Assembly (NCBI RefSeq): GCF_000243135.2
Contig: NC_019903.1
Span: 2,642,001 to 2,706,000 of the forward strand
Length of the DNA stretch: 64,000 bases
Origin: Desulfitobacterium dichloroeliminans LMG P-21439
Lineage (GTDB): Bacteria; Bacillota; Desulfitobacteriia; Desulfitobacteriales; Desulfitobacteriaceae
Direction: 5' to 3'
Below are positions 4,535-18,114 of this stretch, in pieces. Below the pieces are notes generated by a model that saw only the letters and a list, made by a program, of their open reading frames with translations, was not told the DNA's origin and ran no database searches. Numbering within the stretch: the stretch's first letter is position 1; every line of letters starts with the position of its first letter. The position numbers and the translations under genes are program-made.

Positions 4535-7375
4535 TTAAGCGAGTTGTCTGTGTACGAGGTTTGCGAAAACTCCGCTATTGCTCATCAGCTCATCATAGGT
4601 ACCACTCTCAACGATTCTTCCCTGATCCATAACGATAATCATATTACAGTTAATAATCGTACTTAAGCGGTGAGCAATGACAATCCGGGTGACCTTCATC
4701 CGGTCAAGGCTTTGACTGACAATGGCTTGAGTTCGATTATCTAGGGCACTGGTAGCTTCATCAAAGAAGAGAATTTTCGGCTGATTGACTATGGCCCGGG
4801 CAATCATCAAACGTTGCTTTTGCCCGCCGGAGATAGTCGAAGCTCCCTCACTAATCATGGTATGCATTCCCATGGGCATGGCCTGAATATCCTCTTCAAT
4901 TCCGGCCATTCTGGCTGCTGCCCAGGCATCGTCGATCGTCAGATAAGGATTAGCACCCACAATATTTGTGAAGATATTCCCAGACATGAGCTGACCATTT
5001 TGCAGTACAACACCCAGCTGCTTCCGGATCGACCGTATATCTACTTTCTCCAGGTCCTGGCCATCGTAATATATATTTCCGGTCTCTGGCTTTTCGAAGC
5101 CCAACAAGATTCTTAGCAACGTCGACTTTCCACAGCCGGAAGTACCCACTAAAGCGACATAATCCCCTTCCTTAATCTGGAGAGATATGTCTTTCAACAC
5201 CAGAGGCCCATCTTCTTTATAACGAAAAGAAATGTGATCCATCTCGATCGAGCCTCGCAGAGGGACAGGGGTGATCTTCGTCTCATCATACTCCGGTAGG
5301 GTGTCTAGAATCGGTTTAGCCCGTTGATAGAGAGGAATCACAATATAAGAACCAATAATTGATTCCGCCAAGGAAGACATAGAAAGGGTAAAGGAGATAA
5401 AAGCTGCATTGAAGCCGATGAACTCCCCCGGTGATAACTGACTATGGCCTGCAGTGAGAGCATAAAAAATGATCATACTGGCAAGGAGGGGGAAAACATC
5501 ATGAAAGGTCGTCAGCCAATTCCCTAGAATCCTCCTTTTATAGACGAATTGACGTTGTTCACTGAACCTCTCAGCCCATCGGTAAAAGGCTCTAACCTCA
5601 GCACCTGCAACACGAAACTTCGTGATACCGCCGATCAACTGCAGCATCATTCCTGAAATTCGATTCGAGATATCTAATATTTTTCGCTCATAGCCCACTT
5701 GCCGGTACCCCAAAAAAAACATGATGAGCAGTGCTACGGCCACTAAGATCGTGGCCACACCGGCGAGCTTGCGGTCATAATAAAACATTAAGACCAGAGT
5801 AAAAACTGAAAAGATACTAGACAGAACAGTATTTAAGGTGACACCCGAGAGAATTTTGCGAATCTGACTGATGCCCATTGCCCGCATTGCCAATTCACCC
5901 GCTGGAAACTGCTTGAAAAACGGCACTGGTAAACTCAGCAAGCGATCCCAAATAGCTGCCTGAATTGCTCCCTCCATTTTTCCCTCTATCCGCAAGGTCG
6001 CCATGCTGCGTACAAACTGAAAAATCATCGTTGCCAAGGCACTAGCTCCCAAAAAAAAGGCGATTTGGACTAAGTGCCCCCTCTCTCCTTCAGGAATAAT
6101 GGTATTAAAGATGATTCCTGTGGCTAGAGGGATAGCTGTCCCTAAGATCCCACCCAAGATACCCATCAAGAAAATCATCAGGAAGTCCCTGCGCCAGCTA
6201 TTTTCCCACCCTAAGTTTAGCAGGTCGCGGGCGGTGATTTTCTTTTCAGCAAAGGGACGATAGAAGACAAAGCCAAAGGCATCGATCTCCTGTGCTGTAT
6301 CGCGATCAACAGTTCTGGTGACCCCTTGTGTATAATCATGAAGGAAATATTTTGTCGGTGCGGAAGGAATTAAGGCAATCGGTCGATGGTCTTTTTTCAT
6401 ATAACCCAGGAGAGGACCGCTATCTTTTGTATACCAATCACCGTGTAAGGCGACTTCCCTCACCCGCACCCGTGAGGCCCGAGCGATATCATCCAGATGC
6501 AGTTCTCTTCGGCTCCCTAGGACTTCTGGGGGGGCGACAATCTTCATCTGCATCGTTTGACCCACTAGGCGACAAGCATCCAGCAAGACATCTCCTGTCT
6601 GATCTGTTAAAGCCTTGGTTTCCACTTTTTCAGTAATTGCCGCTAACTTCGAGATGGCGGTATCCATCAATCGTCGATCGGATTTACTTTTCTCCTCCAG
6701 CCGCTTTTCCTCAGATTCCCTTTTTTTGTCCCAGAGATTGCTTGCTGCTTGCACAACTTGCGAATGGTATCCTGCACGAAGTGAATCCTTGATTAAATAC
6801 TCATACACAGATATGAATCCTTCAGCTGTAGAAGCGACCTCATCCTGAGAAGATCCGAGATCGAAAGCAGTCTTTGCCTTCTGAGAGATGTCTTCGCGTC
6901 CACTAATCTGAGCTAAACTATGAAGCCATTGGCCTATAGCCTTGTTAATCATCTCTGAGATTTCTTTGTCCGCTCCTCGTTGTTCACTAAGGGCTAGACC
7001 TTGTAGTTCTTCATGAGCTGTTCCCTGGAATTTCTTATGGGCTTCCTCGTCAGCTTCTTCGCTGTCCATAAGTAGCCCTGTTAGTTGCCTGATGTCAAAT
7101 CTCAGTAGACTCGAACCCAATAGCCCTGAGACCAACAAGCCTTTTTTGTGAGGGGTACCTTCAGGAGTTATTCCAAAAAGCCAATCGCCAGGACAGGCTT
7201 CAAATAAGAAGGTTTTGGTCCCTGTCTGTAGCTCTTCATCCATAGTCGATAAAAAGACAGCCGCCTTCCCCTGCTCCACTATCCAAATATAGTGGTCTTC
7301 ATGAAGAAACAGTGATTTTTGGCCATCCAGAGGTATTCTCACACCCTCTTGTTTAAAGAAATCCCAGTTATTCAT
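4535..7375 (-). CDS. NHLM-type bacteriocin ABC transporter, permease/ATPase without peptidase domain
   Basis: About 946 residues, long for an ABC half-transporter. The first 390 residues are a cytoplasmic region typical of the second ATPase of NHLM peptide systems (it begins MNNWDFFKQEG and has no C39 peptidase). Membrane segments follow (about 395-690), then an ABC domain with Walker A GTSGCGKST, signature SGGQKQRL and Walker B ILFFDEATSALD, all intact. It probably pairs with the adjacent peptidase-type transporter to export the matured peptide. The ATG at 7375 is preferred over a GTG three codons upstream that overlaps the AGGTG site. It is the last gene of the export operon. Confidence 0.88.
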   Translation of the reverse strand: MNNWDFFKQEGVRIPLDGQKSLFLHEDHYIWIVEQGKAAVFLSTMDEELQTGTKTFLFEACPGDWLFGITPEGTPHKKGLLVSGLLGSSLLRFDIRQLTGLLMDSEEADEEAHKKFQGTAHEELQGLALSEQRGADKEISEMINKAIGQWLHSLAQISGREDISQKAKTAFDLGSSQDEVASTAEGFISVYEYLIKDSLRAGYHSQVVQAASNLWDKKRESEEKRLEEKSKSDRRLMDTAISKLAAITEKVETKALTDQTGDVLLDACRLVGQTMQMKIVAPPEVLGSRRELHLDDIARASRVRVREVALHGDWYTKDSGPLLGYMKKDHRPIALIPSAPTKYFLHDYTQGVTRTVDRDTAQEIDAFGFVFYRPFAEKKITARDLLNLGWENSWRRDFLMIFLMGILGGILGTAIPLATGIIFNTIIPEGERGHLVQIAFFLGASALATMIFQFVRSMATLRIEGKMEGAIQAAIWDRLLSLPVPFFKQFPAGELAMRAMGISQIRKILSGVTLNTVLSSIFSVFTLVLMFYYDRKLAGVATILVAVALLIMFFLGYRQVGYERKILDISNRISGMMLQLIGGITKFRVAGAEVRAFYRWAERFSEQRQFVYKRRILGNWLTTFHDVFPLLASMIIFYALTAGHSQLSPGEFIGFNAAFISFTLSMSSLAESIIGSYIVIPLYQRAKPILDTLPEYDETKITPVPLRGSIEMDHISFRYKEDGPLVLKDISLQIKEGDYVALVGTSGCGKSTLLRILLGFEKPETGNIYYDGQDLEKVDIRSIRKQLGVVLQNGQLMSGNIFTNIVGANPYLTIDDAWAAARMAGIEEDIQAMPMGMHTMISEGASTISGGQKQRLMIARAIVNQPKILFFDEATSALDNRTQAIVSQSLDRMKVTRIVIAHRLSTIINCNMIIVMDQGRIVESGTYDELMSNSGVFANLVHRQLA

Positions 7376-7422
7376 CTCACTCACCTGCCGATCACGACTG
7401 TTTATTTTTCTTCGTCCCCACT

Positions 7423-9600
7423 TTAACCTGTGGCGATCAGTTTGGCATAAGTCCCTGCGGCCTCATATAGCGACTCATGGTTTCCTCGCTCAATAATCTT
7501 CCCCTTTTCCAGCACAATGATCTCGTCACAATCCCGTATCGTACTAAGGCGATGAGCAACAATGATACAAGTGCACCCCCGGTAACGAATATGTTCATCT
7601 ACGTTTTTCTCCGTTATTGGATCTAGGGCACTGGTAGCTTCATCCATAATTAGAATAACTGGATTTCCGGCTAAAGCTCTGGCAATCTCCAGCCTCTGCC
7701 TTTGACCTCCGCTATAATTTTTACCGCCCTCTTCCACTATTTGCTCATAGCCCCCTGACCGAGCAGTAATATCATCATGAATACAGGCATCCTTAGCAGC
7801 CCGGATCATCTCGAACTCTGAAAGGGTTCCATCCCAGAGGGTAATGTTTTCCTTGACTGTTCCATGAAACATACAAATCTCTTGATCCACCATCGCTAAA
7901 GAATTGCTAATCACTTCCTTGGGGAAAGAGGAACGGGGTTGCCCATCAAAAAGAATCTCACCGGACCAAGGATTGTGGATACCGGCGATGATTTTGGCGA
8001 TGGTCGATTTGCCGCTACCGGAGCCGCCGACTAAAGCTACCCGCGACCCGGGTCTTAGACTTAAACTGAAATCTTCAATTAAGGGCGGTTCCAAAATACT
8101 ATAGCCAAAGGTAATGTTCTTAAGCTCCACATAGCCTGAGAGCTTATGCCCCATCGAAAGCGGCGCGTTCGCGCTAGCTTCTCCTTCGTGACTCTCGTGG
8201 ACGCTTTGCTCCCGATCGAGTGGATATTTTAAAACATCGTCTAAGCGATTCATCTCGCCTTCCATTTCCTGAAGCTCAGCTCCGAGTCCCACCAGTCCGG
8301 TGACGGGCATCATAAAGCTACTCATCAAGCTTTGGAAAGCCACCAGCATGCCGATGGTCATTTGGCCATCGAGAATCAAAAAGCCACCAATCACTAAGAC
8401 GAGGGCGTTATTGATGCCAGTTAAAAAACTGGGGAATACAGATAGAAACTGAGAAGAAACCCCTAGCTCCTGTTCTGCATTGAGCAATTTTGCCTGATAT
8501 CCCGACCATTGGGCAAAGAAGTTAGCTTCCGAGCCTGTGGCTTTGAGGGTCTCGATAATTTGCAGACCCGCCATACTTGAGCCGAGCAGTTTTCCCTCAT
8601 CTTGCAGTAATTTGCGGTTCAGATCGACCCTTCGGGCAGATACCGCAATCAAATAGAATACATTAATCAAAGCAATTGCCAAACCTACTAAGGCTAAAAT
8701 CCAGCTATAGCTGAGCATTAACGCAAAGTAAAAGATAATCATGAGGACATTCAGTGCCGTAGTGGCTAGTTTCCCTGACAAGAGCTTCGCTACCTTATCA
8801 TTGCTTTGTATCCTGGAAGTGATATCACCGGCGGCGCGCTGGGAAAAGAATTCACTGGGTAGACGAAAAATGTGCCACAGAAACTGACCGGAGGTGGCTA
8901 AGGCAATCTTCGTTTCTAATCTAAGCAAATAATACTGCTGCATCCAAGTCAGAACTCCTCTGAGCATTGCCGTAATGCCCATGCCCAGCAACAAGGGTAG
9001 CATCCAAGAATCGAGACCGCCCAACAAAATATCATCGACAAATACTCTGGAAAACACGGGTATTACTAAGCCGGGAATAACTAGGGCCAGACCCAGCAGA
9101 ATGATATAGGTTAAAGCTTTCTCCGAACCTTTAAGCCTTTTCTTTAAGGCAGTGCTTATATTTGGTTTCTTATTATCCTTTTGAAATTCAGGGGTTGGTG
9201 TGAAGGAGAGGACAATGCCCGTAAAGGATTGGTTAAATTCTTCTTCGGATACGACCCTCCTGCCTGCTGCCGGATCATTCAAGTATACTTTTCCTTTATG
9301 AAAGCCTTCCAGAACGAGGAAGTGGCTAAAATTCCAGTGGATGACCAGGGGCAGGGGCATCCCACGCAAAGCATCCGGTTCTTTTCGGTAACCCTTCGCT
9401 TCCAGACCATGACCCCGGGCAGCCTTCAGGAGATTACTGGCTTTACTCCCATCCCGGGAAACACCACAATCAATTCTCAATTCCTCCAAGGTAATATATT
9501 TCCCATAATATGCTAGAATCATAGCCAAAGACGCCGCTCCGCACTCCACCGCTTCCATCTGCAGCACTGTGGGAACCTTGACGATTTTCTGTTTTACCAC
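7423..9600 (-). CDS. NHLM-type peptidase-containing ABC transporter (C39 peptidase)
   Basis: 725 residues. An N-terminal C39 peptidase has the catalytic Cys in VECGAASLAMI (Cys20), the His in HWNFSHFLVLEG and the Asp in LNDPAAG. Six membrane segments lie about residues 160-450, followed by an ABC domain with Walker A GGSGSGKST, signature YSGGQRQRL and Walker B ILIMDEATSALD. This architecture cleaves leader peptides after a Gly-Gly-type motif and exports the core. The neighbouring Nif11 precursor ends its leader in AVAGGG, a suitable substrate. GTG start behind GGGAGGG. It lies between the HlyD-like and the second ABC gene in one operon. Confidence 0.92.
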   Translation of the reverse strand: MVKQKIVKVPTVLQMEAVECGAASLAMILAYYGKYITLEELRIDCGVSRDGSKASNLLKAARGHGLEAKGYRKEPDALRGMPLPLVIHWNFSHFLVLEGFHKGKVYLNDPAAGRRVVSEEEFNQSFTGIVLSFTPTPEFQKDNKKPNISTALKKRLKGSEKALTYIILLGLALVIPGLVIPVFSRVFVDDILLGGLDSWMLPLLLGMGITAMLRGVLTWMQQYYLLRLETKIALATSGQFLWHIFRLPSEFFSQRAAGDITSRIQSNDKVAKLLSGKLATTALNVLMIIFYFALMLSYSWILALVGLAIALINVFYLIAVSARRVDLNRKLLQDEGKLLGSSMAGLQIIETLKATGSEANFFAQWSGYQAKLLNAEQELGVSSQFLSVFPSFLTGINNALVLVIGGFLILDGQMTIGMLVAFQSLMSSFMMPVTGLVGLGAELQEMEGEMNRLDDVLKYPLDREQSVHESHEGEASANAPLSMGHKLSGYVELKNITFGYSILEPPLIEDFSLSLRPGSRVALVGGSGSGKSTIAKIIAGIHNPWSGEILFDGQPRSSFPKEVISNSLAMVDQEICMFHGTVKENITLWDGTLSEFEMIRAAKDACIHDDITARSGGYEQIVEEGGKNYSGGQRQRLEIARALAGNPVILIMDEATSALDPITEKNVDEHIRYRGCTCIIVAHRLSTIRDCDEIIVLEKGKIIERGNHESLYEAAGTYAKLIATG

Positions 9601-9632: not shown

Positions 9633-10571
9633 TTAAAAGGGTATGACTTTCTGAATGGGCTTCTCCCGCAGGGTGATAATCTCCGAGCTAATGATGGTCC
9701 CACTCTGAAAAGACATGGGGGGTCCTAGGGGAGATGACCAGCGATAGCCACTTTCTGTTGCATTGTCAGGAATCAAGTCGATCTTAACTAATAAGGGAGC
9801 ACCTTGCCCTGCTAGTAAGTCGACCAAATTTTCATTGCCCAAAGTTTGCAACATACTTTGCGCGGTCGCCGGATACTCCGCTACAGCATTCACCCGCCCT
9901 ATCAAGTAACCATACTCTTCTTTGTTGACTGTGGTCGGGGAGATTTGGCATTCCATGCCGGGACGGAGCAGACCACCTTGTTCGGCTGGAACATAAACTA
10001 CCGCTTCCAGCTTGACTGTATCACCATACTGCTCAAGGGTCGCCAGTGTATCACCCGGTTTGATGATACTTCCTTTGCTAATATTCAACTCTAATATGCG
10101 GCCATCAATTTCTGACACAACTTGAGTTTGGTAGACTAATTCACTGCGGAGCTGCTGTATCTGTTCCTCGATTTTGGCATTAGCCGGATCTTCTCCTTGT
10201 CCATTGTTTTCCACGGCGTCTTGTCTGCTTAATAGTTCATTGATTTGAGCGACTAACTCCGGTTGCTCAATTCTTGCGATGACATCCCCTTGCCTTACCT
10301 CTTGCCCCACCTTCACGCGAATATCACTGATCTGACCGGTAACGTGATGCTGCAGAGAAAACACCCCGCCATTATTCAGAAGAATCCCTTGTCCCTGAAC
10401 CTTCGTGGGAATGCTCCCTAATAGTCCCCAAGCGACCCCACTTATTAGAATCAGCCCTATTGCCACTAGGGCTAGCCAGGCCTTAGGTGAAGTCACCTGA
10501 ATCCGTTGATCAAGCTGCTCCGGAGAGGACAGTCTCGTCAAAGAAACTTCACGAAATAATCCTTTCTTCAT
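9633..10571 (-). CDS. NHLM-type secretion adaptor (HlyD family)
   Basis: 312 residues. A short cytoplasmic N-terminus is followed by one membrane segment (about residues 30-50) and a periplasmic-adaptor-like region with lipoyl-like halves around VTGQISDIRVKVGQEVRQGD and GSIIKPGDTLATL, separated by a short coiled coil. It resembles the membrane fusion proteins of NHLM bacteriocin export systems. In a monoderm it would extend the exporter across the wall zone. It starts 15 nt downstream of the substrate-binding protein gene and 32 nt before the peptidase transporter, so it is co-transcribed. Confidence 0.88.
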   Translation of the reverse strand: MKKGLFREVSLTRLSSPEQLDQRIQVTSPKAWLALVAIGLILISGVAWGLLGSIPTKVQGQGILLNNGGVFSLQHHVTGQISDIRVKVGQEVRQGDVIARIEQPELVAQINELLSRQDAVENNGQGEDPANAKIEEQIQQLRSELVYQTQVVSEIDGRILELNISKGSIIKPGDTLATLEQYGDTVKLEAVVYVPAEQGGLLRPGMECQISPTTVNKEEYGYLIGRVNAVAEYPATAQSMLQTLGNENLVDLLAGQGAPLLVKIDLIPDNATESGYRWSSPLGPPMSFQSGTIISSEIITLREKPIQKVIPF

Positions 10572-10586
10572 ATCTGTACCCCCCCG

Positions 10587-11720
10587 CTACTGCTTAAGAT
10601 ACTCAAATCGTCCGTCCTTGACCTTCTTCAACACTATCAGGTCGCCGATGTCATCACCCTGCTCATCGAACCGGTGCACCCCTATCACTCCCTCCCATGC
10701 TCCCAAGTCCCTTAATCCTTGGGCAACTGTAGTAGGATTAGCCAAATCAGATTTTTCCAAGGCAGCTGCCAGCAAGTTGACCGCATCATACCCTGTAGCT
10801 GCATAAGAGGTAGGTGGTTGCTGATATTTCTGTCGGAAAGCTTCGATAAAGTCTTGGGTCTCGGAACTGGGACGCTGGGGATTAAAGAAGGAACCTACCA
10901 GCAGCCCTTCTGCAGCAGCCCCGGTAGCCCCGGTCAGGGAAAGTGAGTCCCATGAATTTCCGGCAGCTAAGGGCTCCTCAATGTTTACCGCTCTGGCATC
11001 CATCAAAAATTGAGCCCCACCTTCCGCCGCAATCTTGGCAATAAAAATTCCATCAAAACCAAAAGCCTGCCATTTATCATGCAAACGTTCTAAATCCTCT
11101 AGATTGCTATAGTAATTAAAACGATCCACGATTGTTATTCCCTGGGCACCGGCATAGTCTTCAAAAGCATTGGCCAAACCATTGCCGTACGAGTCATCGG
11201 TATAATAGATAACCATCCGCTCATGGCCTTGTTCCGCAAGGTAAATCGCCAATTGCCGAGCGATCTCTGCATCGGAGGGAATATTGCGAAAGACATGGGT
11301 GTACTCATGCTGAGTGAGTTCCGGTGAAGTCGAAGCCGGAGATACCATCGCCAATCCGGCCTGATCATAAATAGAGGATGCCGGTATCGAGATAAAGGAA
11401 TTGCGATGACCGATGACAGCCTGCATCCCTTTATGGTCCGCGAAGGACTGAGCGGTGGCCAATCCCTTCTCCAGCTCTGCCTCGTCATCAGCTTTAAGCA
11501 GGCTCAGCTTGCGACCTTGTATACCGCCCTGATCGTTAATCTCTTGAACGGCCAGATCAAGGCCTTCTTCAAATAAATCATCTGGGGAGGCAAAGGGCCA
11601 GGCAACACCAATGAGGATTTCTTCACTTGGGTTGACCTGGGTACATCCCAGAGGCCATAGGCTGAGCCCTAAAAAGAGCATAATAACTATTGATTTTTTA
11701 ATCATCCTACTTTGCAGCAT
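10587..11720 (-). CDS. LivK-like extracellular ligand-binding lipoprotein
   Basis: 377 residues: a lipoprotein signal (lipobox PLGC near residue 26) and a two-lobed type I periplasmic binding fold (Peripla_BP_6), with LIGVAWPFASPDDLFEEGL at the start and the family blocks AVIGHRNS, MVSPASTSPEL and VIYYTDDSYGNGLA. Such proteins bind branched-chain amino acids or amides for LIV-type importers. No LIV permease or ATPase is nearby; instead it is the first gene of the peptide export operon, under the ECF-type promoter. It may sense or bind the exported peptide or another signal, which is inference. AAGGTG lies 5 nt before the ATG. Confidence 0.85.
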   Translation of the reverse strand: MLQSRMIKKSIVIMLFLGLSLWPLGCTQVNPSEEILIGVAWPFASPDDLFEEGLDLAVQEINDQGGIQGRKLSLLKADDEAELEKGLATAQSFADHKGMQAVIGHRNSFISIPASSIYDQAGLAMVSPASTSPELTQHEYTHVFRNIPSDAEIARQLAIYLAEQGHERMVIYYTDDSYGNGLANAFEDYAGAQGITIVDRFNYYSNLEDLERLHDKWQAFGFDGIFIAKIAAEGGAQFLMDARAVNIEEPLAAGNSWDSLSLTGATGAAAEGLLVGSFFNPQRPSSETQDFIEAFRQKYQQPPTSYAATGYDAVNLLAAALEKSDLANPTTVAQGLRDLGAWEGVIGVHRFDEQGDDIGDLIVLKKVKDGRFEYLKQ

Positions 11721-11940: not shown

Positions 11941-13335
11941 ATGTACAAAAAGGAAGTGGGTCCCTTTCACCTGTTTGAATACCAAGGCGATCATTATCTG
12001 CTAAATATCGAAAAGATGTCCGCCCATCGAGTGAGCGCGGAACTTTTGCCAATCTTGCATAGGCTCCGGGAGCCGCAAGCAACACTTCCTGCGAGGCAAG
12101 AACAACTGCTCAAGTCATGGGATCTAATTAGGGAAGGCACGGAGAAAGACATATCAGTCGCGAAGATAGAGCCTGTCCCCATCACTTATATGTACCTTTT
12201 CCTCACCCAATCTTGTAATCTTCGCTGTATTTACTGTTATGGCGACGGCGGCGAGTACGGAACCGGCGGCAGTATGGACATTACCACGGCTAGGCAAGCT
12301 GTGGATTGGCTTATCGCCAAGTCGGGGAAAATGAAAAAAATCTACTTAGGATTTTTTGGTGGCGAACCTTTTATTAATTTTGCACTGATGAAAACCACAG
12401 TGGAATATGCCAAATGCAAAGCTCAAGAAGCCCATAAAGAAGTTGCCTTTTATGTGACGACTAACGCTACATTATTAGATGACGAAAAAATCGCTTTTAT
12501 TAAAGAACATCACATTTCTGTACAGATTAGCTTTGATGGTCCAAAGGAAGTCCAAGATGCCCAACGTCCCTATGCCAACGGTCAGGGCTCTTATGACTCG
12601 ATTGTGCCAAAAATCCAAAAATTACTCGCCCTTGCTCCTACAGTTTCCGGACATGCGGTTCTTTGGGGTGATACTGATCCTCAACTTGTTAAGGCTAACC
12701 TGCAAGACCTAGGATTTACCTCCATCTCCCTTTCCCCGGCCTCCCATTCCCTCTTCGCTGATGAATCTGAAAAAAACAGCCTCCGCAAAACCCACGTACA
12801 ACTCCAAGCTTTAGAACAAGAAGCGAAAACCTGGTTGCATCATCTCCGATGCAGAGACATAGATAGCCTCCGTGGCTTAATCGCATGTAGTGCAGGATAT
12901 GGGGTTTACCCCGGTATGATAACCTTGCTGCACAATCGCCATAAATACCATTTTTGTGGTGTCGGTCGCAAGATGGTCGGTGTATCAGTAACAGGAGACC
13001 TCTATCCCTGTCACCGCTTTGTAGGCAACGATGACTATAAATTAGGTCATGTTGACAATGAAAAATTTAACCGAGATGATTATCTACAAAGCCCTGTTTA
13101 CACTCAGGCAAACTGTGCCTCGTGCTTTGCTCGCTATTATTGTGCGGGTGGCTGCCTGCATGATAATCTTAGCTCTAGCGGCTCCCTAGACATTCCCTCA
13201 GAAGAGATCTGCCGCCTCAGGCACCGTGAACTTGAACTGGCCTCAGTCATCGTGTCAAACCTCAGCCCTGATGATCAAGCCTTTTTAGTCAATGAACAAA
13301 TTATTCCTCCCAAACCCTGCCCTCTTGATTTTTAA
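11941..13335 (+). CDS. Radical SAM/SPASM peptide maturase (Nif11-class)
   Basis: 464 residues. An N-terminal RiPP-recognition-like segment (residues 1-80) precedes the radical SAM domain, whose CNLRCIYC supplies Cys92, Cys96 and Cys99 for the SAM-bound 4Fe-4S cluster; GGEPFIN and TTNATLL are typical following motifs. The C-terminal SPASM region has further cysteines (HFCGVG, LYPCHRF, CASCFARYYCAGGC, EEICRLR) for auxiliary clusters. Enzymes of this type form thioether bonds from cysteine in precursor peptides. The Nif11 precursor lies 187 bp downstream on the other strand. GGGAG is 8 nt before the ATG. The exact bond type made is not predictable here. Confidence 0.9.
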   Translation: MYKKEVGPFHLFEYQGDHYLLNIEKMSAHRVSAELLPILHRLREPQATLPARQEQLLKSWDLIREGTEKDISVAKIEPVPITYMYLFLTQSCNLRCIYCYGDGGEYGTGGSMDITTARQAVDWLIAKSGKMKKIYLGFFGGEPFINFALMKTTVEYAKCKAQEAHKEVAFYVTTNATLLDDEKIAFIKEHHISVQISFDGPKEVQDAQRPYANGQGSYDSIVPKIQKLLALAPTVSGHAVLWGDTDPQLVKANLQDLGFTSISLSPASHSLFADESEKNSLRKTHVQLQALEQEAKTWLHHLRCRDIDSLRGLIACSAGYGVYPGMITLLHNRHKYHFCGVGRKMVGVSVTGDLYPCHRFVGNDDYKLGHVDNEKFNRDDYLQSPVYTQANCASCFARYYCAGGCLHDNLSSSGSLDIPSEEICRLRHRELELASVIVSNLSPDDQAFLVNEQIIPPKPCPLDF

Positions 13336-13522: not shown

Positions 13523-13762
13523 TTAGAATAATTCTCTTAAGCCACAGGAATCTAATACGCAACCGCCACCGGCAACAGCATCTAACTCGCTGTCACTCAT
13601 TTCATCGCCAAGATCCTTTAGTTCTGCAGGGCTAAAATCGAAGCCATCCTCTTTTACTAGTACCCGGCGCTCTTCTGCGTCTTTGGCTGCCATAACTTTC
13701 TTGGCAAAGTCCTGATCAGTTTTCATTTTCTCCATGAATGCTTTTGCGGATTCGATACTCAT
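13523..13762 (-). CDS. Nif11-type RiPP precursor peptide
   Basis: 79 residues. The leader (1-66) is Nif11-like: MSIESAKAFMEKMKTDQDFA, acidic stretches and SDSELDAVAGGG at the end, the Gly-Gly-type processing site. The core is only CVLDSCGLRELF (68-79) after Gly67. Cys68 is three residues before Asp71, and Cys73 is four residues before Glu77, a C-x3-E spacing like that used by some thioether (ranthipeptide) maturases. AGGAGGG lies 7-8 nt upstream of the ATG, and an ECF-type promoter sits 55 bp upstream. Leader processing would be by the C39 transporter of the island. The product's activity is unknown. Confidence 0.9.
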   Translation of the reverse strand: MSIESAKAFMEKMKTDQDFAKKVMAAKDAEERRVLVKEDGFDFSPAELKDLGDEMSDSELDAVAGGGCVLDSCGLRELF

Positions 13763-13881: not shown

Positions 13882-14262
13882 TCACAGTTTGCAGTATGGA
13901 CATCTCCCATCCACAGTAATATTCCTTGACCTTGAACCGCATCTCGGGCATTCTTGCCACCCGCTCTGTTGAGAAAAACCTGCTGCAACATAGTCCAAAT
14001 CCTCTTCACCTAACTCCTCATCTCCACTGAATTCCCTTAAGCCAACCGGATTGACCTGATCTAATTGGGCTAAAATCTTTTCCTTTAAGATATCGCGTAT
14101 CTTACTGTTCGAGCTTAAGTCATTGGTGAGCATCGTCTGAGCTAAGAACAAAAGTTTTCTAATTTCTGGATCCTCCACCGCTCCCAGATCTTTTTCCCCG
14201 GCAATGATCTGCTCCAGATACGTCAAATAAGCATCTGCCTTTTGCTTCTCATTCATAGACAC
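13882..14262 (-). CDS. Zinc-ribbon protein with leader-like segment; putative anti-sigma factor or second precursor
   Basis: 126 residues, not recognised as a named family. Residues 1-80 are helical and acidic. Then comes DEELGEEDLDYVAAG, which looks like the end of an NHLP/Nif11 leader (ELxxxxLDxVAxG), followed by a 32-residue tail holding two Cys-x2-Cys pairs (CPRC and CPYC), a zinc-ribbon pattern. It overlaps the sigma factor gene by 14 bp, an arrangement common for sigma/anti-sigma pairs. So it may be a zinc-dependent anti-sigma factor, or a second modified peptide substrate with four cysteines. Start GTG 14262 or ATG two codons on are both possible. Confidence 0.7.
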   Translation of the reverse strand: MSMNEKQKADAYLTYLEQIIAGEKDLGAVEDPEIRKLLFLAQTMLTNDLSSNSKIRDILKEKILAQLDQVNPVGLREFSGDEELGEEDLDYVAAGFSQQSGWQECPRCGSRSRNITVDGRCPYCKL

Positions 14263-14872
14263 ACATCCCTTGTCTTGCCAAAACTATGCGCAACTGTCGC
14301 ATAGCCCGAAAGAGGATAACCCCTGTATTACTTTCGCTGATGTCAACGAGCTTGGCGATCTCACGATTGCTTAAGCCACTCCAGAACTTCAAAGCAATAA
14401 TCTCTTGTTCACGTTGACTTAAGCAAGCAATGGCCTTGAGGAGGTGATGTTGGATCTCATTTAATTCCACTATAGTTGCCGGATCGGGCTCACGAGCTAC
14501 AATGTTTTTGGTATATTCATCAAGGGAAATAACATGTACTCCCTTTCGGCTTCGATAGTAATCAGTGATGGTATTCCGGGCAATGCGAAAAAGCCAGACA
14601 GAAAAAGGGGCTTTGTCTTTCTGGTAATAGTGATTTTTGGTAAATACTTTCTCAACGATTTGGCTGACCAGATCTTCGGCATCATGATAATCGGCCACCC
14701 GATAATGCACATAATTATTAATCCGAGGAAAGTAATAATTGTAGGACTCTGTAAAGGAGTTCTCATCCTCTTGCACAAGTTCAATCAGTGCTCTTCCTGA
14801 CCCCTGAGTTAATATGGCCGATCCCCCCTCGATCTGAAAACTTCTGCCCGTAGCCTCATTATAAAAATCCAA
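14249..14872 (-). CDS. ECF-type RNA polymerase sigma factor
   Basis: 207 residues. Sigma region 2 covers about 40-110 (DAEDLVSQIVEKVF, PFSVWLFRIARNTITDYYR) and region 4 about 140-195 (LSQREQEIIALKFWSGLSNREIAKLV, helix-turn-helix). Regions 1.1 and 3 are missing, as in ECF factors. It starts with TTG behind GGTGG. The next gene begins inside its last codons, so the two are translationally coupled. Its likely targets are the three TGTAAT-N16-CGTAT promoters of the island. No such promoter is visible in front of its own gene, so its expression may depend on the upstream MalT-like regulator. Confidence 0.9.
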   Translation of the reverse strand: MDFYNEATGRSFQIEGGSAILTQGSGRALIELVQEDENSFTESYNYYFPRINNYVHYRVADYHDAEDLVSQIVEKVFTKNHYYQKDKAPFSVWLFRIARNTITDYYRSRKGVHVISLDEYTKNIVAREPDPATIVELNEIQHHLLKAIACLSQREQEIIALKFWSGLSNREIAKLVDISESNTGVILFRAMRQLRIVLARQGMCVYE

Positions 14873-15050: not shown

Positions 15051-17969
15051 TTAGTTCTCGATGCTCGCGATGGAATGTCCCATCTTCGCACACCGCCGTA
15101 TCAATTCCCTGGCCTTGGACTTTTCTCCCGCTTCCGCGCACCCCTCCAGCAGGACCGCCGCAGCTCTAAGAAAGAGTTCCTCAAGGTGGATTCTTGTACT
15201 TTCAGCCCACAGTGCCTCCAAGTCATTCAGATAGCGTCCAGTGTAGTGTTCCACAACCTTTTGGGCGTTCCCAAAGCTTGGCTGCTGTGCGAACACTGCT
15301 ACAGCTTGCTGGAAAGCATCGAGATCACAGCTAATTTCAGCCATCTTTAGACGGTACATACCACCCTCATATACGATAGGGTTACCGGCCCCTACACTCT
15401 CAAAAGCCCGTCGTATCTCACCGCGGCGGGTATGAAATAAACTGGTCACATTTGCCTCGCTGTCCCACCACAGGTCGTTCAAGATATTTTCTTTACTGAC
15501 CCCTTCACGATGCTCTAGTAGATAAGCTAAAAGCTCACGAGCTTTCTGAGTGCGGATCTTAATCGGGTTTTTCAGCTCATGGGCAGGAGCCATGTAAAAG
15601 GTTCCCAGGGTTTTGATATAAATCCGAGCACAAGTATACTCTCCGTACCTGAAAAGCTCGCGGGTATAGTCCGGCATAATCCCTTCATCTGCTGCCTGCT
15701 TCAAGACAGCAGCAAAAAGCGGCTTAAAGCGAATGTAGTAGCGGTGATCATTTTGACGGGAAAGTTCCAGAAAGCGGCAGATATAACTCTGAGCCTGCTC
15801 CGCATCACCCTCTTCCAAATAAATGGCCGCCAGCTTGCCATAAGCAAGGGTTGCATAGGCATAGCAGCCAATTCCCTCGCCGATAGTGATCGACTTTTTA
15901 TAGTATTCTATATACTGTTCCTTATTCTTCTTCATCACTTGCAGGGCATTGGCCATCCGCCCAAAGGCCACGGTCTGAAAGAAGGGGGTGGTATCTTCGA
16001 TAAGCAAAAGTATCTCGGCAATAATCTGCTCAGCTTTATCCCGATGTTCTAAGATTTCCGCACAAGCCTTCCATATCTTCACAAATAACCAGTGCTCGCG
16101 GGTGCTGCGATTTAAAATAGCATATTCTTCCGCCATGTTCAGATAACGATCAGAGACTGAAAAATCAGCAGCTTCTCCCAAGTAATATTTTAGCTGCTCA
16201 GCGGTATTAAGAGTTTCGGCATACAAGAGATAATTGATGCTGAACTCTTCATGAAGACCCAATTGGCGCATCCGATAAAGCTCCGCATCTAGCAAGGGCA
16301 GCGCCTTTTCTTCCTGCCCGGCAATCTGGTAAGCTTTAGCGGCATAGACTCCCACCCCATGGCGCATCAGCTGATCCTGCTCTTCTTGAGGAATGGTCAG
16401 AGACTTTTCATAAGCCTTCAAACAATTTTTATAATCTCCTTTATAAAAATAGATGACCGTGAGATAGCGCTCAAACCAGCCTTTAATTCTTAAATCTCCA
16501 TTCACTAAGCATTTATTCATCATAGCCATTGTTAAATCCATGGCCTCGGATAGCTGGGAGATGAGCGTCAGGTTGTGAATCTTTTCAATGAGAACTCCGT
16601 ACCAGACTGACATGGGTGTACCTTCCAGAAGGGGTAGCAGACAATCTAGGCACGCATTGCTCTCCGCGAAGGAAGACCTGTTGCGCAGTACTCTTGCCGA
16701 ATGGGTCATAGCCAGTATATAAAAGTCCTTGTCTTCACTTATTAACTGGGGGGTTGCTACTCTGAGGTATTTTTCTGCCTGGTAAAAGTCGCCGTGATCA
16801 GAAAGGTAAATCCCTTTGATTAGTTGAACCCTTGGGGTTAGCTCAGCGTGGCGAACCTCAAGAAAATCAAAGTACCTTTTTAAATCTCTGTTGCACCCTT
16901 TGGCAATGAGTTCTCCTGCCATTGCACTGATACAGTCATGAATAATTATCGTATCCTCAACTAAGAAGGCGTACTCAGCTGCCCGCCCATAATCTCCGCT
17001 TGCGTAGTAGCTATCCTTGGCCTTCTGCAAGATTCTCCATCCCGTACCCTCATCATTTTGTTGTAAAAAAGTACGGAATAAGGTGTGGTAGCGATAAGAG
17101 GTAGTAGACGTTCTCAAGGTAAAGAGGTTTCTGTGCACAAGTTCTTCGAGGATTTTCTGGGAATGGTCGATATCTAACAAACGATTACAGGTTACAACCT
17201 CCAGCTCCGGGAGCCGAGAAGTGGCTTTCAAGAAATCTCGGATTTCCTCCGTTAGCCCCATGAATATTTCATTAAACAGATAGCGGCTAATATCTCGCTC
17301 AGCCTCAAGCTTCGCTAAAGAGAGCTCTTTATTGCCCTCTGCCGCCAAACGATAGGATTGAATGGCTAAAGTCCATCCCTCAGTGGCTGAAAAGGCGGCC
17401 TCATCTGAAAATCCCCATAGTCTTGTCGCTTCCTCCTGGCTGAAGCTCAAATCATTTTTGGTGAGCTCAGTCACTCCACCAGCCATTTTTAAGCGAAAAA
17501 GACCACTCCATAATTCATGACGACTAGCCATGATCAGAGTAATCTGAGGAGGACAGCCTTTGATCATTTCTGCAAGAAGATCTGTTAACTGTGGATTGGC
17601 AATCACATGCACATCATCCATGATAAGGGTCAGCCTATTGCTACCCATTGCTTTTAACAACGCAGAAAGAACAACCGGCACAAAGGTATCACTCCCCGTA
17701 AAGGGAATATAGTCTGTGGCATGAAACTCAAACTCGACCAGTCTCTCCCTAAGCGAAAATTCCAGGTGCTGTAAAAAGAATAACGGCTCACGATCCTTAC
17801 CATCCAGAGCCATCCACACAACATCTTCACGTCCTCTTGCGTATTGCATCAAGAGGGTGGTCTTACCATAGCCTGCATCAGCATGTATGTAGGTAAGCTG
17901 AGTGCCGGGGAGACCAATCTTATCCAACAAATGGGGGCGTTGTAGGAGTGCCTCAGTGCCTTTTGGCAT
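15051..17969 (-). CDS. MalT-like ATPase regulator with C-terminal SARP/BTAD domain
   Basis: 972 residues. The N-terminal STAND-type ATPase has Walker A ADAGYGKTTLL (about 29-39) and Walker B TLIMDDVH. A long TPR-like helical solenoid (about 330-760) follows. The C-terminal part has a winged-helix segment (TLGTFYM, KARELLAYLLEHREGVSKENILNDLWW) and a bacterial transcriptional activation domain (SCDLDAFQQAV, YTGRYLNDLEALWAE). Such proteins are ligand-controlled activators. It lies directly upstream of the sigma operon with direct repeats between, suggesting it turns on the sigma gene. ATG 17969 has GAGG 6 nt upstream; a TTG farther up is an alternative. Confidence 0.88.
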   Translation of the reverse strand: MPKGTEALLQRPHLLDKIGLPGTQLTYIHADAGYGKTTLLMQYARGREDVVWMALDGKDREPLFFLQHLEFSLRERLVEFEFHATDYIPFTGSDTFVPVVLSALLKAMGSNRLTLIMDDVHVIANPQLTDLLAEMIKGCPPQITLIMASRHELWSGLFRLKMAGGVTELTKNDLSFSQEEATRLWGFSDEAAFSATEGWTLAIQSYRLAAEGNKELSLAKLEAERDISRYLFNEIFMGLTEEIRDFLKATSRLPELEVVTCNRLLDIDHSQKILEELVHRNLFTLRTSTTSYRYHTLFRTFLQQNDEGTGWRILQKAKDSYYASGDYGRAAEYAFLVEDTIIIHDCISAMAGELIAKGCNRDLKRYFDFLEVRHAELTPRVQLIKGIYLSDHGDFYQAEKYLRVATPQLISEDKDFYILAMTHSARVLRNRSSFAESNACLDCLLPLLEGTPMSVWYGVLIEKIHNLTLISQLSEAMDLTMAMMNKCLVNGDLRIKGWFERYLTVIYFYKGDYKNCLKAYEKSLTIPQEEQDQLMRHGVGVYAAKAYQIAGQEEKALPLLDAELYRMRQLGLHEEFSINYLLYAETLNTAEQLKYYLGEAADFSVSDRYLNMAEEYAILNRSTREHWLFVKIWKACAEILEHRDKAEQIIAEILLLIEDTTPFFQTVAFGRMANALQVMKKNKEQYIEYYKKSITIGEGIGCYAYATLAYGKLAAIYLEEGDAEQAQSYICRFLELSRQNDHRYYIRFKPLFAAVLKQAADEGIMPDYTRELFRYGEYTCARIYIKTLGTFYMAPAHELKNPIKIRTQKARELLAYLLEHREGVSKENILNDLWWDSEANVTSLFHTRRGEIRRAFESVGAGNPIVYEGGMYRLKMAEISCDLDAFQQAVAVFAQQPSFGNAQKVVEHYTGRYLNDLEALWAESTRIHLEELFLRAAAVLLEGCAEAGEKSKARELIRRCAKMGHSIASIEN

Positions 17970-18114
17970 TATATTCCTCAACCCTATCCCCCCTTCAATC
18001 GTCAGCAATTTAAGAACTCTTACCTTTAAAATTAGACCCTCTCCACTAAAAATCCTTCTCCCTTACGTTCCGCAGTAATTTAATTTTCAAGTATGCGGAT
18101 CTCCTTCACTTACC

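Follow-up and report, generated by a model that had tools for sequence, protein, structure and literature searches.

Binding proteins of the LivK type are taught as parts of importers, and this locus of Desulfitobacterium dichloroeliminans LMG P-21439 raises the question of what such a protein does at the head of a peptide export operon. The window, that is, the whole 64,000-nucleotide stretch of DNA that was analyzed, carries on its (-) strand a gene for a 377-aa LivK-type (Peripla_BP_6) binding lipoprotein (10587..11720), followed by the genes for an NHLM HlyD-type adaptor (9633..10571), for ABC1, a peptidase C39/permease/ATPase protein (7423..9600), and for ABC2, a permease/ATPase (4535..7384), with intergenic gaps of 15, 32 and 38 nt. 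The three NHLM export components are contiguous and all exceeded the NCBIfam cut-offs of their models: TIGR03794 for HlyD (331 bits against a cut-off of 156), TIGR03796 for ABC1 (1151 against 853) and TIGR03797 for ABC2 (1007 against 709). The original prediction, that a LivK-like binding lipoprotein heads an exporter operon, was confirmed by the Peripla_BP_6 match, by a lipobox-like signal and by the position of the gene, 15 nt before that of the NHLM HlyD. Its companion claim, that no importer genes are found nearby, also held: all nine BPD_transp_2 (PF02653) matches of the genome lie outside the window, and no match to this LivH/LivM-type permease family was obtained within its span.

The gene for a nif11-like peptide radical SAM maturase (11941..13335, (+) strand; TIGR04064, 697 bits) is divergent from the lipoprotein gene. 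Beyond it, on the (-) strand, lies a putative Nif11-type precursor of 79 aa (13523..13762), named by motif and context, whose leader end, DAVAGG, and core, GCVLDSCGLRELF, were assigned by motif only. ORFs resembling a Nif11-type precursor were also seen in other exporter clusters. The gene for a 126-aa protein (13882..14262, (-) strand) overlaps that of an ECF-type sigma factor (14249..14872, (-) strand), the latter being identified by Pfam/NCBIfam profile matches, while Pfam and NCBIfam profile searches with the 126-aa protein gave no match. This protein contains a RiPP-leader-like VAAG motif, ELGEEDLDYVAAG, and, after the motif, a Cys4 zinc-ribbon-like tail; its homologues adjoin the sigma gene in many exporter clusters, and it may be a sigma partner cut by the peptidase of the exporter. 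Upstream of the sigma gene, a MalT-like STAND protein is encoded (15051-18008, (-) strand), homologues of which, with 57-61% identity, were observed near the exporter clusters L047 and L140.

The lipoprotein matched Peripla_BP_6 with an E-value of 4.8e-48 (165 bits, against a Pfam gathering cut-off of 31.7). Its best NCBIfam model was LivJ/K NF011933, with a score of 146 bits, far below the cut-off of 477. The signal peptide ends at PLGC, before TQ, which is lipobox-like, and a loose lipobox pattern was matched by 27 of the 29 exporter-linked members described below. The predicted model showed a two-lobed type I binding-protein fold (pLDDT 81.8, pTM 0.80) and was closest to the structure 4q6b (Z 42.5, 2.7 A over 334 residues), with a Z of 36.1 for LivJ (4gnr). 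The entries 4mlc and 4q6b correspond to a D. hafniense binding protein that is 81% identical to the lipoprotein across nearly the whole mature chain and was deposited as an ABC transporter substrate-binding protein, under a title that makes no mention of an exporter. The Leu ligand of 4q6b was taken from its entry title, 'ABC Transporter Substrate-Binding Protein from Desulfitobacterium hafniense complex with Leu', and no paper naming 4q6b or 4mlc was found in the open-licence PMC literature.

The linkage of the gene to NHLM exporters was then analyzed in other genomes. In a search of 61 genomes, that of the window and those of 60 relatives, the six top-ranking matches to the lipoprotein, the window's included, have identities of 36-100% and all adjoin HlyD and ABC1 genes; a radical SAM gene also adjoins five of these six. 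Absence of the gene from all related clusters, which had been named as evidence against the original prediction, is thus clearly contradicted. The search with the six-member alignment collected 80 loci, with NHLM genes beside the LivK match in 16 of them (from Bacillota, Spirochaetota and one Myxococcota contig) and without such genes in the other 64. The total set of exporter-linked proteins reached 29 clusters from Bacillota, Spirochaetota and Myxococcota, with the gene in or beside the exporter genes. The neighbourhood is not due to chance, since the D. dichloroeliminans genome has four Peripla_BP_6 matches and orthologues of the lipoprotein occupy this position across many species.

The frequency of this association was quantified in an even phylum draw of 398 genomes, 20 of which contained a total of 24 ABC1 matches. 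The binding protein accompanies 9 of the 23 resolvable NHLM exporters and is missing from the other 14, a count that excludes L136, whose contig ends inside the cluster. Therefore, it is constant in some NHLM exporter branches, not in all, and is not required for NHLM export in general. In the search of the relatives, 8 of 12 ABC1 matches are accompanied by the gene; the four that are not include L132, which scores below the family cut-off, and L130, which lies close to a contig end. Three pairs of loci that represent the same places (L123, L124 and L125, equal to L044, L045 and L051) were counted once each. Two main layouts were observed, binding protein-HlyD-ABC1-ABC2 and HlyD-ABC1-ABC2-binding protein. 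The order in L139 is ABC2-binding protein-HlyD-ABC1, two genes separate the binding protein from HlyD in L053, and in L055 the binding protein is flanked by ABC2 and by an outer-membrane efflux protein, which comes directly after it. The maturases of the clusters with a binding protein differ, being a nif11 radical SAM protein in the window, a YcaO protein in L052 and another radical SAM protein in L139, and the binding protein accompanies the exporter whatever the maturase.

Other transport proteins were observed in some of these clusters. An MFS protein is encoded upstream of the exporter-linked binding protein, either immediately or with one gene between them, in L050, L138, L140 and L141, and three of these four MFS proteins have about 380-400 extra N-terminal residues. 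An SBP_bac_3 binding protein and a sodium:dicarboxylate symporter (identified by Pfam in L053 and by sequence likeness in L135) occur in or near the exporter operon of these two loci. An ABC_sub_bind protein was found in L050 and L138, the L138 copy being at the opposite end of the stretch.

When the 29 exporter-linked proteins were placed in a tree with 66 other binding proteins, all of them fell on one side of a single branch, with a support of 97/84, and this branch was present in 99% of the bootstrap trees. The same 29-member split was obtained, with a support of 100/100, in a tree with 43 other binding proteins (18 of the 66, and 25 from nearer relatives and from the window's own genome), in which the two other D. 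dichloroeliminans binding proteins fall outside the exporter-linked side. When eight long-branch rows were removed the split stayed, 24 against 40, with an SH-aLRT of 99. The repeated recruitment of different LivK genes was rejected on the basis of these trees, which do not include L057 (truncated and nearly identical to L055) or some of the lower-ranked LivK matches from the 61-genome search, and which place all of the exporter-linked proteins on one side of the branch. In the ABC1 tree (28 clusters with the gene and 17 without it), gene presence needs three changes, against 13.8 in shuffles. We firmly regard the lipoprotein as a dedicated, conserved partner of one NHLM exporter branch.

Additionally, the pairwise distances were compared across 26 clusters (the 29 less L126a, L126b and L133). 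The correlations reached 0.95 for LivK-HlyD and HlyD-ABC1, 0.90 for LivK-ABC1 and 0.85 for LivK-ABC2, in Mantel tests uncorrected for the shared operon ancestry of four genes that all travel together. The partial correlations, which are descriptive values with no significance test, were 0.69 for LivK-HlyD given ABC1 and 0.02 for LivK-ABC1 given HlyD, and became 0.52 and 0.22, respectively, when three divergent clusters were left out. Four exporter-linked members without the pocket anchor residues (L126b, at L126 3109-4227; L129 13344-14531; L133 2656-3840; and L147 2243-3364) sit on a long branch (1.8-1.9); for three of the four, ABC1 falls in another exporter branch, the ABC1 of L133 being cut. 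This combination in the trees makes one transfer of the gene between exporter branches possible.

The binding pocket was compared with the LivJ-isoleucine contacts obtained by docking, as given in PMC6983066; S79, A100, T102 and Y150 (E. coli numbering) are identical in the window protein, F276 is Y, and the changed positions are Y18 (P), L77 (R), C78 (N), A101 (S), A103 (S) and Y202 (I). At position 18, the classical residue is W or Y, against P in the window protein. Moreover, E226, which we take to be the ammonium partner of the LivJ-type pocket, is replaced by N. A match to the classical leucine-binding residues had been named as evidence against the original prediction, and the comparison gave a mixed picture: the anchors S79, T102, D121 and Y150 are kept and the 81%-identical orthologue is titled with Leu, whereas the side-chain positions 18, 77, 78 and 202 depart from it. 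Among the 29 members, S79 is kept in 24, T/S102 in 25, D121 in 25 and Y150 in 24.

The mean entropy of 12 pocket positions was 0.93 in the 13-member clade of the window (62% mean identity), compared with 0.32 in an importer set of 61% identity and 0.33 in an overlapping set of 56%. At positions 18, 77, 202 and 276, which were chosen after seeing the table, it reached 1.90 against 0.39 in importers, while positions 78, 79, 101 and 102 are invariant in this clade. These values indicate that in the window's clade the anchor loop is, by alignment, fixed and the rest of the pocket apparently free or diversifying. Such a variable pocket is a poor fit to one fixed free ligand such as leucine.

The lipoprotein very probably belongs to the export system. 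It is likely located outside, near HlyD, with an amino-acid-type pocket, and sequence comparison points to a protein that is probably a partner of HlyD and binds an amino-acid-like ligand. In the proposed mechanism it would be anchored at the external surface of the membrane (the periplasm in diderms) and would work beside HlyD and the two ABC proteins, not with an importer. Close to the external side of the exporter, the kept amino-acid-type pocket would bind either an amino acid or an end group resembling one, and this binding would alter the shape of the lipoprotein and regulate or assist the export step through HlyD. As a whole, a dedicated outside subunit of the NHLM exporter branch, gating via HlyD, is the best explanation, and we give it an even chance of being correct. 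A receptor or gate role at the exporter is proposed tentatively from these sequence data. The further proposal that an importer-type binding protein could form a fourth subunit, an outside receptor docked on HlyD that controls or receives the exported peptide, is a speculative one. The original prediction listed a receptor, an immunity protein and a chaperone as candidate roles, to which regulation by a free amino acid must be added.

The first alternative, which appears unlikely although it deserves consideration, is that the lipoprotein serves as a receptor or chaperone, capturing the mature peptide on its exit from the exporter and holding its C-terminal carboxylate in the anchor loop. The linkage to the exporter and the co-divergence with HlyD would agree with this role, and the last residue of many cores is hydrophobic. 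If the end group that is held stayed constant and the rest differed, an invariant anchor with a variable pocket would be expected, as seen in the 13-member clade at positions 78, 79, 101 and 102 and at positions 18, 77, 202 and 276. However, the latter four positions were selected after seeing the data, and the entry titles show a fold family known for single amino acids, small acids or amides. Furthermore, near-identical cores are paired with different pockets: the window and L044 differ at positions 18, 77, 226 and 276, and L047 and L049 at positions 18, 77, 202 and 276. The pocket variation thus does not read the core in a simple way, and the idea of a pocket that varies to read the core peptide was set aside.

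These pairs, together with the fact that the gene tracks the exporter lineage across differing maturases and cores, weaken core-specific recognition and also a core-specific form of the immunity role, in which the lipoprotein would bind the cell's own peptide at the surface. LanI lipoproteins act in this way, binding the cell's own lantibiotic and conferring immunity. The present protein is likewise a surface lipoprotein in a peptide cluster, and a loose lipobox is found in 27 of the 29 members, but the LanI fold differs from that of Peripla_BP_6, the lipoprotein follows the exporter instead of a single peptide type, and the loci used for the trees include no clade member that stands apart from an exporter. 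We know of no killing activity of the Nif11/NHLM-cluster peptides considered here, and immunity is judged improbable.

An amino-acid sensor that shares the operon and acts via other partners, such as sensor kinases or secondary transporters, is given a slightly lower probability still. The SBP_bac_3 proteins and dicarboxylate symporters of L053 and L135, the four upstream MFS proteins and a multidomain kinase in L053 would be suitable partners; none of them is constant, however, as only the exporter genes are always there, and the window gene has no such partner alongside. The amide sensor AmiC from Pseudomonas (1pea, also listed in the structure comparison) shares this fold and uses it for sensing, not for import. 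AmiC acts on a cytoplasmic regulator and, unlike it, the exporter-linked protein is a lipoprotein.

LivH-type permeases with their own binding proteins are encoded elsewhere in the D. dichloroeliminans genome, so that this genome alone leaves room for action in trans. The E. coli LivH query had a match in 16 of 17 genomes, the exception being G316 (one contig, 99% complete), in which neither the LivH nor the PF02653 search gave a match and the sole PF13458 (Peripla_BP_6) protein is the exporter-linked one; the controls of the PF02653 and PF13458 searches were positive in 12 of 14 and 10 of 14 genomes, respectively. An importer component in trans was therefore rejected for the G316 lineage, and is unlikely for the window's protein. 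It is barely credible that the protein is an orphan that binds leucine for a normal branched-chain importer in trans, as LivJ does in E. coli, since the Leu of the 4q6b title and the permeases present elsewhere in the window's genome are outweighed by a single clade tied to the exporter, by G316 and by a pocket constraint that differs from that of importers.

A dedicated outside partner of the exporter was also compared with known systems. The lipoprotein resembles LivJ/LivK in its fold, signal peptide, pocket anchors and Leu-solved orthologue, but its operon has no importer partner, it belongs to a separate clade and its side-chain pocket is made of variable, mostly polar residues. The NHLM/NHLP export system was defined by TIGR03794, TIGR03796 and TIGR03797 (Haft et al., 2010; PMC2887384), and D. 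hafniense is among the species in which N11P occurs beside the NHLM transporter; Dhaf_0108 is the D. hafniense precursor tag given in PMC4289311. No mention of a binding protein or of a periplasmic or substrate-binding component was found in the 2010 paper, and compared with the system as described there, one branch here constantly includes a binding protein as a fourth component. A search of open-licence PMC papers gave no description of NHLM clusters with a binding protein.

The presence of a protein resembling an amino-acid catcher as a conserved exporter partner suggests that certain export pumps are equipped with an external receptor. The binding protein is kept with the exporter in three phyla and diverges in step with the adaptor, and such a partnership would imply that certain exporters sense or retain something outside; if the proposal is true, this would be a binding-protein-dependent exporter. 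The gene is a marker for one branch of the largely unstudied NHLM peptide systems, and its already crystallised family offers a probe for the outer end of NHLM export.
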